Origin: Litorimonas cladophorae
GTDB lineage: Bacteria > Pseudomonadota > Alphaproteobacteria > Caulobacterales > Maricaulaceae
DNA length: 64,000 nucleotides
Direction: 5' to 3'
Assembly: GCF_014652455.1 (NCBI RefSeq)
Contig: NZ_BMYV01000001.1
Span: 620,001-684,000 of the forward strand
Below the pieces are notes generated by a model. That model was given only the letters and a program-made list of their open reading frames with translations, was not told the DNA's origin and did no database searches. Made by a program: the position numbers and the translations under genes. Below are positions 28,250 to 34,823 of this stretch, in pieces (the stretch's first letter is position 1; the number at the start of each line of letters is the position of its first letter).

Positions 28250-28309
28250 AGACCCAGCGCACTGAGAATGGTCAAATATCGCACTTGACCTAAGCGCGCG
28301 TTCCGTATT

Positions 28310-28325
28310 TGTTCCACGTGGAACA
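28310..28325. other. parS centromere site (ParB-binding palindrome)
   Basis: TGTTCCACGTGGAACA is a perfect 16-bp palindrome. It agrees with the bacterial parS consensus TGTTNCACGTGNAACA at all fixed positions. It lies in the gap between the slt stop and the FAN1-type nuclease start. ParB nucleates here to organise origin segregation. parS sites cluster near the replication origin in most bacteria, so the window is probably origin-proximal. Confidence 0.85.
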
Positions 28326-28371: not shown

Positions 28372-30570
28372 ATGTCGACTTTAGCGTCACAGGCTCATAT
28401 CCGCGCTGAGAGGCGACGATTTCGCCGCGCACAGAACGGACAAGCTTGGACCGTGCGTGACCTTCCGCAGTTTTACTACCACCGAAATTTTTCCGAAATC
28501 ATTGATGGAGTGGCTTCAGAGCTGCAGGAATTATTAGCTTCACGCGACACATCTTTCCTCAATGATTTTAAGTCCCTACCCTTCGCATCTCAATGCGCTT
28601 ATGTGCGCCTGGCGGGCCGCAAAGGACGAGTCTTTCACGTCGACAAATTCAAATATGACGAGATTGAAGACCTGCCCGCGCAATATGATCTGCTGACAGA
28701 ATCCGGATTTACCTCGCGTGTGACGCCGGGGGATTTCCGCGACTATCTTTCCAGTCTCTCAAAGCCTGATTTGGTTGGCGTACTTTCAGACCATGCTTGC
28801 CCAACTCTATATAAGAAATCATGGAAGAAAGACGTACTCGTAGAGATCGCCTATGAAGCCATCGCGTTTGATGAGCTATCCATACCAGACACCGTCATTG
28901 TTCAGGGACGGTTAGACGCTTTGAACTACCTACTTTACCTGTTTTCAGGTCGGATTGACGAGAGTCTCCAAAATCTCACGCTTCGCGATCTTGGCTTAGT
29001 CAAAATGCAAAAATCTGAGCAGCATTTTGGTACGCGCTTCGGTTCTTTAAGGGCCGCAAAGACCGCATGGTTCTATGCCAGCGGTTTGCAAAACTTTCGT
29101 CGTGAGGAACACGCAGAGGTTCAACGCCTGATGGCAAGTATCGAAACATGGCCTGAACCATTATGTGCGCAAAGCACAGGAGATCGCGACAAGCTTGTTC
29201 AGAGTATTGGCGGTCTATTGGAGCGCAAAGGCCAACTCGAAGCCGCCTTACGCTGCTATGATCAATCCGATGCACCCCGATGCAACGAGCGCGTTGTACG
29301 TCTAAAGTATAAGTTGGGCGAAAAAGACTGGGTGCAAACCCGTCTGGAGGCCATGATTGAGAATCCAACGTCCGACGACGAACATGCCTTTGCTCGGGAT
29401 TTTTACGCGCGGAAATATAAGAAGAAACGCACGTCGATCATCACGGACATATTGCGGGATTCCGAAGTATTGGAATTGGACGAAGCTTTTCGCAACCAAC
29501 CCGAACGCGCAGCAGCAGAACATTATAGAGCCAAAGGGCTCACATGTTTTCGCGCCGAGAACACGCCTTGGAAAAACCTGTTCGGTCTTTTGTTTTGGGA
29601 CGAGCTTTTCCCAGATACCGTGTCCCGCAGAACGCCAATGGCATTAAAGTCGGGAGACTTTTACGCTGATAATCAAGCCGCGATTGAGGCGAAATTGCGC
29701 GACCTGGACACGCCCCACCTCATACTGATCAAACTTCTCAAAACATTGACCGCCCATTATGGCGAACCGCAATCCATCGTGAAGTGGAGGTCGAAATCCT
29801 TGGATCGTATTCAGGCCCTCGTTGAAAACTCTCCTAAAGGTTCAGCGGCCTATATGCTTCGGCTTATGGCGCAGGAGTGGACAAGAACCAAAGACGGTTT
29901 CCCGGACCTCCTCGTCATACAGGATGGCACATGTCGACTTGTCGAAATCAAAGCCACAGGTGATGTGATACGCCGCAATCAGCTCACCCGCCTGCGCCAA
30001 CTCCGTGCAGCCGGATACCGCGCAGACATACTTCGAGTGGAATGGACCATCGATCCCGATCAAACCTATGTCGTCGTTGACGTCGAAACCACGGGCGGAC
30101 GTCCAGGTCTGCACCGCGTCACAGAAATCGGTGCCGTAAAGGTAAAGGGCGGGAAAGTTATCGATGAATGGTCCTCTTTAATAAACCCACAGCGCTCTAT
30201 CCCACCCAATATTACCCGCATCACAGGCATCACACATGAGATGGTCGCGGATGCCCCCATTTTTGCTGAAGTGGCAGAGAGCTTTGCGAAATTTATGGGC
30301 GACGCCATTTTCGCCGCTCATAATGTGAATTTTGACTACGGGTTTATCAGTGCAGAATTCCAAATGATCGACCAAAAATTCCGACATCCAAAAATCTGCA
30401 CCTGCGCATCCATGCGGAAATTATATCCGGGTTATCCGTCCTATTCCCTGAAAAATTTATGCCGCGAATTTCATATTGATTTGAAGAGCCACCATCGCGC
30501 GCTGTGTGATGCCAAAGCCGCCGCAGAACTTCTGTTTCTCGTGAATGAAAGACGCATTGAAGACGCTTAA
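28372..30570 (+). CDS. FAN1-type VRR-NUC nuclease fused to DnaQ-type 3'-5' exonuclease
   Basis: This 732-aa protein has two nuclease modules. Residues 1-560 look like bacterial FAN1: an N-terminal domain, a TPR-like helical middle, then the VRR-NUC region. That region has AAEHYRAKGLTCFRAENTPW (Glu383), LFGLLFWDELF, and the PD-(D/E)XK core GFPDLLV (Asp512) with LVEIKAT (Glu525, Lys527). FAN1 resolves interstrand crosslinks and 5' flaps. Residues about 565-728 form a DEDDh exonuclease with Asp570 and Glu572 in VVVDVETTGG, Asp655 in HNVNFDYGF, and His708 and Asp713 in HHRALCDAKAA. Both active sites appear complete. No stop or frameshift separates them. It follows parS. Confidence 0.88.
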   Translation: MSTLASQAHIRAERRRFRRAQNGQAWTVRDLPQFYYHRNFSEIIDGVASELQELLASRDTSFLNDFKSLPFASQCAYVRLAGRKGRVFHVDKFKYDEIEDLPAQYDLLTESGFTSRVTPGDFRDYLSSLSKPDLVGVLSDHACPTLYKKSWKKDVLVEIAYEAIAFDELSIPDTVIVQGRLDALNYLLYLFSGRIDESLQNLTLRDLGLVKMQKSEQHFGTRFGSLRAAKTAWFYASGLQNFRREEHAEVQRLMASIETWPEPLCAQSTGDRDKLVQSIGGLLERKGQLEAALRCYDQSDAPRCNERVVRLKYKLGEKDWVQTRLEAMIENPTSDDEHAFARDFYARKYKKKRTSIITDILRDSEVLELDEAFRNQPERAAAEHYRAKGLTCFRAENTPWKNLFGLLFWDELFPDTVSRRTPMALKSGDFYADNQAAIEAKLRDLDTPHLILIKLLKTLTAHYGEPQSIVKWRSKSLDRIQALVENSPKGSAAYMLRLMAQEWTRTKDGFPDLLVIQDGTCRLVEIKATGDVIRRNQLTRLRQLRAAGYRADILRVEWTIDPDQTYVVVDVETTGGRPGLHRVTEIGAVKVKGGKVIDEWSSLINPQRSIPPNITRITGITHEMVADAPIFAEVAESFAKFMGDAIFAAHNVNFDYGFISAEFQMIDQKFRHPKICTCASMRKLYPGYPSYSLKNLCREFHIDLKSHHRALCDAKAAAELLFLVNERRIEDA

Positions 30571-30651: not shown

Positions 30652-31566
30652 TTGGCAATTCCTCTCTCAGTTACGGACACGCCGACGGCCATCCAAACCA
30701 TGCGAGGTTTGATCGAAAACCGTCTGTCGAGCCTTGTGCCGTCTGAAACCACTTGGCCCGCCCGTCTCCACGAAGCCCAACGTCACGCTTTGCTGTCTCC
30801 CGGAAAGCGATTTCGACCGCTGCTCTGCGTTTTTATCGCCCAAGGCGGTGGGATAAGAGCCGGTGCCGAATTGGACGCAGCCATTTCAACGGGGTGCGTG
30901 GCTGAAATGGTGCATGCCGCATCCCTGATTTTGGACGACTTGCCCTGTATGGATGATGCCGATTTGCGTCGGAACCAACCCACGACACATATCGCCTTTG
31001 ACGAAAGCACAGCCATTTTATCGGCCACGGCGCTGCTAAATTGCGCTTTTGGTGTGTTGTCGCGCTTGGACCAAGTCCCCGCGCAACGCCGTATCGAAAT
31101 GATCGATTTGTTGTCCTATGCGGTTGGGTCAAAGGGACTGATTGCGGGACAAATGGCCGATCTCGCCAATGTCGATCAAGGCGCAACCATCGCGGAAATT
31201 GAGCGGCTCAACACGCTCAAAACAGGCGCGCTATTCGATTTCAGTGTTGAAGCTGCGGCGATATTGGCTGGCATGCGAGCCTCCCAACGCGCCGCATTGA
31301 AAGATTTTTCCTACCATTTGGGATTAGCTTTCCAATTACTGGATGATGTCAAAGACGTCGTCATGAGCGATGCTGAAGCCGAAAAATCAGTCAATCGTGA
31401 CATCGGCAAAGCGACGATATTAGCGCTGGCAGGGTCAGAGGCTTCAAAACGGAAGCTACAAGATTATCTTGATCACGCCTCTGCCGCCCTTCAACGGGCA
31501 GAGCTCTCAAATCTCGACATGCTCACCGCCATCATGGATCATCAGTTTGCCTTTCTCCGCACCTGA
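30652..31566 (+). CDS. crtE: Geranylgeranyl diphosphate synthase, CrtE-like
   Basis: This 304-aa polyprenyl synthase has first Asp-rich motif DDLPCMDD (95-102) and second motif DDVKD near 232. The residue five before the first motif is Ala90 (HAASLILDD), as in CrtE of carotenoid clusters, whereas farnesyl synthases usually have an aromatic there. That and its place in an operon with crtW and crtZ favour a C20 product for carotenoids. IspA remains possible. The start is TTG at 30652 with AGGA at 7-base spacing. The next gene begins before its stop. Confidence 0.85.
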   Translation: MAIPLSVTDTPTAIQTMRGLIENRLSSLVPSETTWPARLHEAQRHALLSPGKRFRPLLCVFIAQGGGIRAGAELDAAISTGCVAEMVHAASLILDDLPCMDDADLRRNQPTTHIAFDESTAILSATALLNCAFGVLSRLDQVPAQRRIEMIDLLSYAVGSKGLIAGQMADLANVDQGATIAEIERLNTLKTGALFDFSVEAAAILAGMRASQRAALKDFSYHLGLAFQLLDDVKDVVMSDAEAEKSVNRDIGKATILALAGSEASKRKLQDYLDHASAALQRAELSNLDMLTAIMDHQFAFLRT

Positions 31567-32506
31567 TACAGCCACGCGTGAACTGATATTGAGCGCCACG
31601 GATGTGACCGTGGCCTATGGTCAACACAAAGCGTTGGACGGTTTGAATTTAGAAATTCGAGAAGGTGAACTTGTCGGAATCATTGGGCCAAATGGCGCGG
31701 GTAAAACGAGTTTTATCAGAGCGTTGTGCGGACGAACACGCGTGACGGGTGACCTTAACGTCGCCGGCACAGACCTCCGCCGCAGTACCGATCGTCGGCG
31801 TCATATTGCCCTCGTTCCGCAAGATATAGGTTTATATCCTCACCTCACGGCTCGCGAAAACCTAACCGTCATTGGTCGGCTTTTGGGGTTAAAAGATAGA
31901 GCCGCTATCAACCAAGCCTTAGAGACAGTTGAGATGTCCCAGCATGCCAAGACACGAGTTTCAGAAATGTCAGGCGGCATGAAACGGCGCATTAATGTCG
32001 CCGCGGCCATCATGACAGGGCCAAAACTCGTCATTTTCGATGAACCGACCGCTGGCGTGGATGCCCCTGCCAGAGATACAGTTCACCGCTTAGCTCGCGC
32101 CTTGGCCGATCAGGGAAAAGCGGTCATTTTGATCACCCACGAATTAGAACAAGCCGAGGCCCTTTGTGATAAAATTCTAGTGCTGTGCAAAGGCAAACGA
32201 CTGGCATTCGAACCGCCTGCCCGCCTCCTAGAGCGAAGCTTCGAGAACCAGCGAGAAGTTATGGTGAGATATGCCACACCTCCCGAGCCTGAAGTTTTGA
32301 ATGCCATGCAACCATTCGCTTTTACGCCCGGCGAAATGCCCACGATTTGGGTTGCTATGACCAATGCGAATGAAGTGAGTTTCGTTTCGGCGTTTTTAAC
32401 CGCGCTAAAAGGCGAAAATGATCTTGTGCGTGAAATCAGCGTCCGTCGCCCAGGGCTAACGGCCCTGATGCATAGGGTCGAAAAAACGGGTCAGATCGCA
32501 GCATGA
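31547..32506 (+). CDS. ABC-2 type transporter, ATP-binding subunit
   Basis: The protein has about 319 aa. Walker A is GPNGAGKT, the signature is MSGGMKRR, and Walker B is LVIFDEPTAGVD with an H-loop in LITHELEQAEA, all typical of CcmA/NatA-like exporter ATPases. There is no good ATG. I chose the TTG at 31547, inside the crtE end; a TTG at 31589 or a longer ATG reading from 31469 are alternatives. It overlaps the permease gene by four bases. The substrate is unknown; the location inside a carotenoid operon suggests a pigment or membrane-lipid role. Confidence 0.88.
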   Translation: MPFSAPDTATRELILSATDVTVAYGQHKALDGLNLEIREGELVGIIGPNGAGKTSFIRALCGRTRVTGDLNVAGTDLRRSTDRRRHIALVPQDIGLYPHLTARENLTVIGRLLGLKDRAAINQALETVEMSQHAKTRVSEMSGGMKRRINVAAAIMTGPKLVIFDEPTAGVDAPARDTVHRLARALADQGKAVILITHELEQAEALCDKILVLCKGKRLAFEPPARLLERSFENQREVMVRYATPPEPEVLNAMQPFAFTPGEMPTIWVAMTNANEVSFVSAFLTALKGENDLVREISVRRPGLTALMHRVEKTGQIAA

Positions 32507-33597
32507 TCGGCGCCGTCTTTCGGATTATGTGGCTGCGTCTGTGGCGCGACAAGGGCGCTTTAGTCTTAGCTTTTGTTCTGCCTGGATTTATCTTCGCCGT
32601 TTTCGCGGCCATTTTTTCAAATGCCTCAGGCGGCAGTCTTGATCTTCGTGTTGCGCTGGGAAGTATCTCAGATGCGCCCGCCGCTGTTTCCTTTACGCAG
32701 CAATTGTCGGAAAGCGACGTGATCTCAATGACTTATGATGAAACGTGGAGCGCAGCGGACGTGATAGAGCGTGTCCGACTCGGTCAAGATGATGTAGGCG
32801 TGATTGTCACGGGTGACTTTTCCGATGCCTCTTCCCCCTCCATTCAAATCATTGAGGACCCAAGCCGGACCGTCGCTGCAACAGTTTTAAAGGGCCAAAT
32901 CAGGCAAATGCTGGCCACCACCTCTGGGGTCAAAAGCACGGCATTATTCAATACCAAATCGGCGTTGGGGGCCGACGCGTCCACGACAATGGAAGACCCG
33001 TCGGTCACTTATTATATTGGCGCAACGGCGATTTTGTTTCTGCTGTTCTCGGCTATGCAGGGCGCAGCCATTTCGATTGACGAACGCCGCAACGGAATCA
33101 GTGACCGACTGATGGTCGGCCCGATGGGCGCCATGGGCATACTAACGGGTAAATTCGTCTTTCTGACTTGGATCGGGTTTCTACAAGCCGCGATCATCTG
33201 CGTGGTTGCTCAGGTTTTCTTTGAAGTCCCGATTTTAGAGCATCTCGGCGCAGTTACGCTGGCTTGTTTAGGGACCGCGACGCTGGCGTCCGGGTTTGCG
33301 CTTCTGATTGCGTCTTTCTGCAATACGCAGGCGCAAATGCATACCGTCAGCACCTTTGCCGTGCTGCTCTTATCTGCCGTGGGCGGTTCAATGGTGCCGC
33401 GGTTTATGATGCCCGCTTGGCTGCAACAAATGGGGGTAGCGACGCCAAATTATTGGGCTATCGAAGCCTTCTATGGCGTTTTGGCACGGGGACAGTCTGT
33501 TTTTGACCTGTTAGGGGTTTGGGGAATATTGTTCGGCGGAGGTCTTCTCTGCCTCGCACTCGCTGCGTTGATGTCGCACAAATTAATGAGGGTCTAA
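32503..33597 (+). CDS. ABC-2 type transporter, permease subunit
   Basis: The protein has 364 aa. The first transmembrane helix is near residues 20-40, followed by a large extracytoplasmic loop of about 130 residues and then five or so C-terminal helices (about 165-360). The segment DERRNGISDRLMVGPMG matches the YhgE/ABC-2 permease pattern. It starts within the ATPase stop codon (ATGA) and its own stop is directly followed by the crtW GTG, so all four genes are translated as one unit. Confidence 0.88.
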   Translation: MIGAVFRIMWLRLWRDKGALVLAFVLPGFIFAVFAAIFSNASGGSLDLRVALGSISDAPAAVSFTQQLSESDVISMTYDETWSAADVIERVRLGQDDVGVIVTGDFSDASSPSIQIIEDPSRTVAATVLKGQIRQMLATTSGVKSTALFNTKSALGADASTTMEDPSVTYYIGATAILFLLFSAMQGAAISIDERRNGISDRLMVGPMGAMGILTGKFVFLTWIGFLQAAIICVVAQVFFEVPILEHLGAVTLACLGTATLASGFALLIASFCNTQAQMHTVSTFAVLLLSAVGGSMVPRFMMPAWLQQMGVATPNYWAIEAFYGVLARGQSVFDLLGVWGILFGGGLLCLALAALMSHKLMRV

Positions 33598-34323
33598 GTG
33601 CAAACCGCCGTATCTCAGCAGACGAAACAGAACAGGGGCTTAATCTACGCCGCCCTGATCGTCGGCGGGTGGGCGATTGTTCATACCTACAGCGTGTTTT
33701 TCCACGCTTTATCCGCGCCCCTTTGGCAAACTCTCGGCCTGATCGCTCTGCAATGCTGGCTGTATACAGGCATGTTTATCGTCGCCCATGACACGATGCA
33801 TGGTTCACTCATGCCGGGTCGCGAGAAATTGAATGCGGCCATCGGCACCGCTATCTTATTTGTTTATGCTGGTTTCGACTGGAAAGCGATGCGCACAGCC
33901 CATCATGCGCATCATCAATTTTCTGGGACGGAGAAAGACCCAGATTTCAATGCCACTAATCCGAACGCATTTTGGCCGTGGTACACCAAGTTCTTTCTGA
34001 CCTATTTTGGATGGCGACAGCTTCTTATCCTCGTCGGATTTACAGTGGCTTATATTTTGATCGGGGCAAGTTATGCGAACACCATTATCATGTGGGCCGT
34101 CCCTGCGATCCTGTCATCTGTGCAGCTATTCTATTTCGGGACCTATTTAACGCATCGACAGTCCGACGCCTTCCCGGACCATCACAACGCCCGCACGAAC
34201 AATTTCACTCGTCTGGCCTCGCTTATAAGTTGCTTCCATTTTGGCTATCATCACGAACATCATTTGTTCCCACATGAGCCTTGGTGGCGATTACCTGCGC
34301 GAAAACAAGAAGCTGGCGGATGA
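33598..34323 (+). CDS. crtW: Beta-carotene ketolase CrtW
   Basis: CrtW adds 4-keto groups to beta-ionone rings. The 241-aa membrane protein has all the di-iron histidine boxes: HDTMH (64-68), HHAHH (102-106) and HHEHH (218-222), the last in FHFGYHHEHHLFPHEPWWRLP. DPDFNATNP is also typical. The start is GTG at 33598, directly after the permease stop, with GAGGG at 5-base spacing. With crtZ it should give astaxanthin-type products from beta-carotene. Confidence 0.95.
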   Translation: MQTAVSQQTKQNRGLIYAALIVGGWAIVHTYSVFFHALSAPLWQTLGLIALQCWLYTGMFIVAHDTMHGSLMPGREKLNAAIGTAILFVYAGFDWKAMRTAHHAHHQFSGTEKDPDFNATNPNAFWPWYTKFFLTYFGWRQLLILVGFTVAYILIGASYANTIIMWAVPAILSSVQLFYFGTYLTHRQSDAFPDHHNARTNNFTRLASLISCFHFGYHHEHHLFPHEPWWRLPARKQEAGG

Positions 34324-34823
34324 GTATCTTGTTGAATTTGGGGATCGTTCTGGCGGCCGTAATCGGCATGGAAATCTTCGCATGGGCTATCCACAAATAT
34401 GTCATGCATGGAATAGGATGGGGCTGGCATGAAAGCCACCACACGGAAACGGACGGCCTGTTTGAAAAGAATGATCTCTATGCTGTCGTGTTCAGCTGCA
34501 TCGCAGCGGCTTGTTTTATCATCGGGTCGATGGGGCATAGCTGGCTTTGGTATGTTGGACTTGGCCTGACACTTTACGGCGTTCTTTATGCTGTGGTGCA
34601 TGATGGCTTAGTCCATCGGCGCCTGCCATTTCCGCGCAAAGCCAGAGGTCGCTACATGAAACGCCTCGTGCAAGCTCACCGTCTCCACCATGCCGCCCAC
34701 ACAAAAGACGGTTGCGTCAGCTTTGGTTTCATCTGGGCGCAGGATGTGCGGAAGCTAAAAGCGGAATTGAAACAGAATCTGTCGCGCCAAGGCCGATCCC
34801 ATCAAACTGATATCGCGGAGTAA
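34320..34823 (+). CDS. crtZ: Beta-carotene 3-hydroxylase CrtZ
   Basis: CrtZ hydroxylates the C3 positions of beta-ionone rings. The 167-aa membrane protein has the four histidine motifs HKYVMH (25-30), HESHH (37-41), HDGLVH and HRLHHAAH. The ATG at 34320 overlaps the crtW stop (ATGA). The genes crtB, crtI and crtY, which would supply beta-carotene, are not in the window. Confidence 0.95.
   Translation: MSILLNLGIVLAAVIGMEIFAWAIHKYVMHGIGWGWHESHHTETDGLFEKNDLYAVVFSCIAAACFIIGSMGHSWLWYVGLGLTLYGVLYAVVHDGLVHRRLPFPRKARGRYMKRLVQAHRLHHAAHTKDGCVSFGFIWAQDVRKLKAELKQNLSRQGRSHQTDIAE

Follow-up and report, generated by a model that had tools for sequence, protein, structure and literature searches.

The window, a stretch of 64,000 nucleotides from the alphaproteobacterium Litorimonas cladophorae, contains a gene in which a FAN1-type nuclease and a DEDDh exonuclease lie on one chain. 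The gene and its upstream region comprise the following features.

28285..28289, + strand: TTGAC, resembling a -35 element, with 10 bp between it and the LexA box
28300..28314, + strand: LexA (SOS) box GTTCCGTATTTGTTC, an exact alphaproteobacterial motif
28372..30570, + strand: FAN1-DEDDh fusion gene, 732 aa, a single open frame without internal stop
28471..28710, + strand: FAN1_HTH domain, residues 34-113 (Pfam 66.1 bits, cut-off 27)
29725..30045, + strand: VRR-NUC nuclease domain, residues 452-558 (Pfam VRR_NUC 50.6 bits, cut-off 23.8), with D512, E525 and K527
30046..30069, + strand: junction, residues 559-566 (TIDPDQTY), of equal length in 38/38 fused copies, with D561 and P562 invariant
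30070..30534, + strand: DEDDh 3'-5' exonuclease domain, residues 567-721 (Pfam RNase_T 132.5 bits, cut-off 24), with D570, E572, D655, H708 and D713

In the genus and family of the window, 17 other copies are known, and in 11 of them a polyprenyl synthase gene directly follows FAN1. In the window, the region downstream of FAN1 (30652-34823) contains, beyond the polyprenyl synthase gene, a hydroxylase-family gene and a CrtW-like ketolase gene that scores below the model cut-off, which suggests a ketocarotenoid cluster.

Domains, active sites and structural relatives

FAN1_HTH, VRR_NUC and RNase_T all score well above their Pfam cut-offs, and the claim in the sequence-only reading of this DNA that a full VRR-NUC site and a full DnaQ-type site share one 732-residue frame proves correct for every residue named. 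Alignment to solved structures identifies D512, E525 and K527 with the D/ExK residues of PaFAN1. E396, located N-terminal to the VRR-NUC domain and not listed in that reading, is presumably a further active-site acid of the FAN1 type. In an alignment of 38 fused copies, a sample that extends down to 34% identity, E396, D512, E525, K527, D570, D655, H708 and D713 are kept in all 38, and E572 in 37, with Gly in the remaining copy (L031). At sequence level, the conservation of the DEDDh set in 37-38 of the 38 copies contradicts the earlier worry that the exonuclease half might be dead; both halves look functional, with intact active sites.

Conservation is strongest in the exonuclease half, which has a mean column conservation of 0.74 versus 0.51-0.58 in the FAN1 regions and 49 near-invariant positions among the 38 copies. 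Between the window protein and L004, the exonuclease half is 90% identical, compared to 66% for the FAN1 half. Since a loose tether should differ in length between copies, the constant length of the junction and the invariant D561-P562 pair suggest a fixed geometry between the two halves. A structure model built from two sequences only (the window protein and L002) reaches a mean pLDDT of 39 and a pTM of 0.27, values too low for conclusions on fold or geometry.

Residues 33-561 of the window protein align with residues 19-558 of PaFAN1 in 4r89 (E 3.5e-23), and residues 32-561 with residues 38-579 in 5y7g (E 3.7e-23). The likeness to this biochemically studied solo enzyme from Pseudomonas (PDB 4r89, 5y7g) comprises the HTH and VRR-NUC domains, is colinear across the entire FAN1 half and includes identical catalytic D/E/K residues, but the solved PaFAN1 chain stops at this point, whereas the window protein passes into the exonuclease after about five more residues. 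Human FAN1 (PDB 4ri8 and others) aligns over the VRR-NUC domain and the adjacent part (query 378-556), and its aligned chains are devoid of an exonuclease domain. Human FAN1 additionally carries a UBZ domain at its N-terminus. On the exonuclease side, residues 563-722 align with the PolC exonuclease domain (E 1.2e-29); DinG and the epsilon subunit match over comparable stretches. An origin of this half as a recent copy of the genome's own epsilon subunit was considered and dropped, epsilon being only 35% identical; it is the sole other match to the exonuclease half in this genome at E 1e-3.

Fusions of a DEDDh module to another DNA enzyme also occur in DEDDh-DinG helicases and Cas2-DEDDh proteins, which match the exonuclease half of the window protein, but there the module is joined to a helicase or to a Cas protein instead of FAN1. 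The exonuclease-Cho fusions (PRK07883; 'Fusion Cho-polIII') likewise combine a DnaQ-like exonuclease with a structure-specific repair endonuclease, and the window protein follows the same principle but differs in its endonuclease and in the order of its domains: the Cho fusions begin with the exonuclease and have an endonuclease of the GIY-YIG (UvrC-like) type, whereas VRR-NUC comes first here. 'Cho-polIII' fusions have been published, and a coordinated action of endonuclease and exonuclease was proposed (Van Houten 2002, cited in PMC1839093). Pfam finds no GIY-YIG domain in the window protein, and PRK07883 models match its residues 563-727 only, far below cut-off.

Among the loci from 299 proteobacterial genomes, the 20 that rank next after the FAN1-linked ones in similarity to the exonuclease half include 10 in which a Cho part is detectable; the top eight of the 20 all belong to these 10. 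In these 10 proteins, which have frames of 403-530 residues, the DEDDh domain precedes a Cho/UvrC-like GIY-YIG domain; the architecture is confirmed by Pfam on three other such proteins. No sister group of the FAN1-linked exonucleases emerges from a tree of the exonuclease module (deep supports 81/70), nor does this tree show the FAN1-linked and the Cho-linked sets as sisters; a viral Cho-linked exonuclease is placed among long-branched FAN1 copies. In one scan of viral contigs (IMG/VR) with the alignment, one relative, L083 (1-1356), and no FAN1 was found. This protein, an exonuclease-Cho fusion at a contig end, has an exonuclease 45% identical to that of the window protein.

Distribution and descent of the fusion

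Pseudomonadota genomes were searched with the FAN1 half alone, taken from the fused protein (E <= 1e-6), the window's own genome being counted in the order, class and phylum samples alike. A FAN1 match is present in 23/398 genomes of the order, 4/385 of the class and 55/398 of the phylum, and its absence from most genomes of the order and class marks the fusion gene as dispensable. A scan of genome contigs yielded one relative, and a control genome of Caulobacter vibrioides has no VRR_NUC match. The full-length copies examined from the window's class (Alphaproteobacteria) number 31, and every one is fused; they comprise 29 copies in 28 genomes, including the window, and two on Bradyrhizobium plasmids. 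The sole exception in the class is genome G333, which contains only fragments of a fused FAN1. Seven further fused copies come from another class, six from genomes of family f191 and one from a Pseudoalteromonas plasmid. They are taken as gammaproteobacterial, because the f191 copies, L036 apart, group with the Pseudoalteromonas plasmid copy. In L038 (genome G789), a 613-residue frame is accompanied by an N-terminal piece detached from the fused FAN1.

The other 19 proteobacterial copies examined are solo, with frames of 539-605 residues and no exonuclease within approx. 1.5 kb on either side. For 25 of the 44 genomes of the phylum search outside the window's class and f191, the assignment was judged by frame length only (548-687 aa). 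In the five of 12 plasmid matches that were examined, an exonuclease adjoins the FAN1 match by coordinates. NCBI labels three fused plasmid-borne proteins as 'exonuclease domain-containing protein', a name that hides the FAN1 half. The counts leave out repeats of the window or L002 (L001, L003, L062, L067 and, presumably as the record of L002, L005), the pieces of the broken G333 copy (L025, L026) and repeats of counted loci (L087-L095); L086 is also fused but stands outside the 38.

In a tree of the FAN1 half, a single branch with 100/100 support separates the 38 fused from the 19 solo copies. As all fused copies fall on one side of this branch, the fusion most simply arose only once. The long-branched L036 stands beside the same-class set in this tree. 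A tree of the exonuclease half, for which a very distant epsilon served as the root, places the seven other-class copies (94/90) within the same-class set. The same-class copies are not kept together in it, unlike in the FAN1-half tree when this is read in the simplest way. Because the query came from a fused protein, distant solo copies are sampled too thinly; the phylum search did reach solo copies at 22-29% identity, and such copies in the class should have been met by the search.

The presence of a FAN1-type nuclease and a DEDDh exonuclease on one chain, as first read from the window, is thus backed by sequence, conservation and phylogeny. Of the refuting condition named there, that the architecture prove common and already characterised, one half applies: the architecture is the rule within its clade, and no characterisation was found in the literature searched. 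Among the listed publications on VRR-NUC and FAN1, from a literature set with few subscription journals, none is described as dealing with the fusion or its SOS control. The architecture itself is expected to be present in domain databases.

LexA boxes upstream of fused and solo genes

New here is the exact alphaproteobacterial LexA box at the FAN1-DEDDh fusion gene. Upstream regions were scanned for GTTCN7GTTC or its complement, GTTCN7GTTC being the published Caulobacter LexA motif (PMC12700426). The exact box precedes 26 of the 30 other same-class copies, with 0.30 expected from shuffles, and occurs in 3/547 control windows from the same loci. Four of the 31 same-class copies are devoid of the exact form: L009 and L018 show a one-mismatch form, and L015 and L016 none. 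In L027 and L032, the box is located 157-181 bp from the aligned start. A TTGAC element is found at most 30 bp upstream of the box in 18/27 same-class copies with an exact box, versus 118/4630 control 30-bp windows, and its position would place the LexA box near the presumed -10 element in many copies.

In this genome, boxes of this type are also found upstream of lexA, of recA, of an ImuA-like gene that scores below the model cut-off and of a YifB/ComM-type gene, and a further one overlaps rmuC at its first start codon. Genome-wide, the tight pattern GTTCNNNNTTTGTTC matches eight times, versus two for the reversed control. Three of the eight are without an evident SOS gene, among them one before a cytosine methyltransferase gene and one inside a long frame.

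The alphaproteobacterial box is present in 0/7 other-class fused copies and 0/19 solo copies. A gamma-type LexA box, which we take to be CTGTN8ACAG, occurs in exact form in three of the seven other-class fused copies (0.02 expected, for the exact form only) and with one mismatch in three more. This gamma-type box is also found, in exact form, upstream of 4/19 solo FAN1 genes (L050, L053, L054, L057; 0.09 expected). Damage control of bacterial FAN1 may therefore extend beyond the fusion, and solo FAN1 proteins may also be SOS-controlled. The box upstream of the fused gene backs a putative role of its product in DNA-damage repair; an SOS box is a mark of damage control, not of crosslink specificity.

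A parS-like palindrome, GTTCCACGTGGAAC, at 28311..28324 (no strand assigned) overlaps the LexA box by one half-site. With the parS consensus assumed here, the genome contains five such sites, two of them less than 4 kb from a parB-family gene on another contig, and L006 shows a one-mismatch form, GTTCCGCGTGAAAC, at the same place.

A candidate damage-response nuclease

The fusion protein is probably an SOS-induced nuclease for the repair of crosslinks or flaps, in which the FAN1 half would cut and the DEDDh half would trim 3' ends. LexA binding, both activities, their polarity, their coupling and the crosslinked substrate are features that we infer from the sequence data. FAN1 unhooks crosslinks in a stepwise manner. 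In an undamaged cell, LexA would occupy the box overlapping the presumed -10 element and keep expression low, until DNA damage leads to its removal. At a crosslink or a stalled fork, the FAN1 half would then bind branched DNA that carries a 5' flap, cut past the branch and step 5' to 3', thereby unhooking the lesion. Each FAN1 cut would leave a 3'-OH, from which the DEDDh half, directly joined to the end of the VRR-NUC domain, could digest 3' to 5', so that a single nick could be widened by the two halves into a gap on both of its sides. Alternatively, the crosslinked remnant could be shortened, allowing passage by SOS translesion polymerases. The occurrence of one box type at the fusion gene, recA and the ImuA-like translesion gene agrees with a damage-response step that precedes gap filling. 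The activity proposed for the FAN1 half is consistent with that of pFAN1, which cuts 5' flaps and shows some 5'-3' exonuclease activity (PMC4103454).

A damage-induced fusion could also be devoted to general clean-up of 3' ends at flaps, stalled forks or recombination ends, with crosslinks not being its main substrate. This reading, which we consider rather unlikely, accommodates the lesion-neutral nature of SOS regulation and the location of an SRAP gene, from a family that acts on abasic sites, next to the copy on a Bradyrhizobium plasmid. It is also in line with the DnaQ-like RNase T, reported to act in repair by trimming structured DNA at its 3' ends (PMC3942315), but FAN1 is known as a nuclease in interstrand-crosslink repair (PMC4103454).

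It is very unlikely that the DEDDh half acts on RNA or serves as a DNA-binding or scaffold module, which would leave the protein without a coupled DNA nuclease. Weak, sub-threshold Pfam matches to an Rv2179c-like exoribonuclease in L023 and L060 point in this direction, but they are opposed by the intact active site and the high conservation of this half, and by the fact that its best matches are DNA enzymes, i.e., the exonuclease domains of PRK07883, DinG, PolC and epsilon. A mobile anti-phage defence nuclease instead of a repair enzyme is scarcely credible: the patchy distribution, the copies on two conjugative plasmids and the matches of PADLOC models (candidate PDC-S48, CRISPR-associated DEDDh, 'Effector' exonuclease) to the exonuclease half would agree with it, but these matches are confined to the generic DEDDh domain, a search of 50,697 phage records with the FAN1 half gives no match at E 1e-5, the LexA box is conserved, and the polyprenyl synthase gene directly downstream in most copies of the genus and family indicates a steady chromosomal place there.

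The SOS-induced repair nuclease remains the preferred reading. A more far-reaching version of it, in which the protein is a LexA-controlled, self-contained 'unhook and trim' enzyme that generates either a bidirectional gap or a minimal remnant for translesion synthesis, is possible and put forward tentatively. If true, it would be, together with exonuclease-Cho, the second case of damage-induced incision nucleases recruiting a DEDDh exonuclease. To our knowledge, the finishing of FAN1 cuts is little understood, and the natural fusion would tell which activity was selected for this step in one bacterial lineage, namely a 3'-5' exonuclease that directly adjoins VRR-NUC. The SOS box provides independent evidence for this bacterial FAN1 as a damage-response gene. 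Human FAN1 acts in crosslink repair and guards against CAG-repeat expansion in Huntington's disease (PMC8424649, PMC13086964).

The SRAP (HMCES/YedK-like) gene adjoins the fused FAN1 gene not only on the Bradyrhizobium plasmid but also beside both copies in genome G754. The SRAP loci are L059 (3158-3907), L028 and L030, with a partial match in L061, and the G754 copies group with the Bradyrhizobium plasmid copy in the FAN1-half tree.
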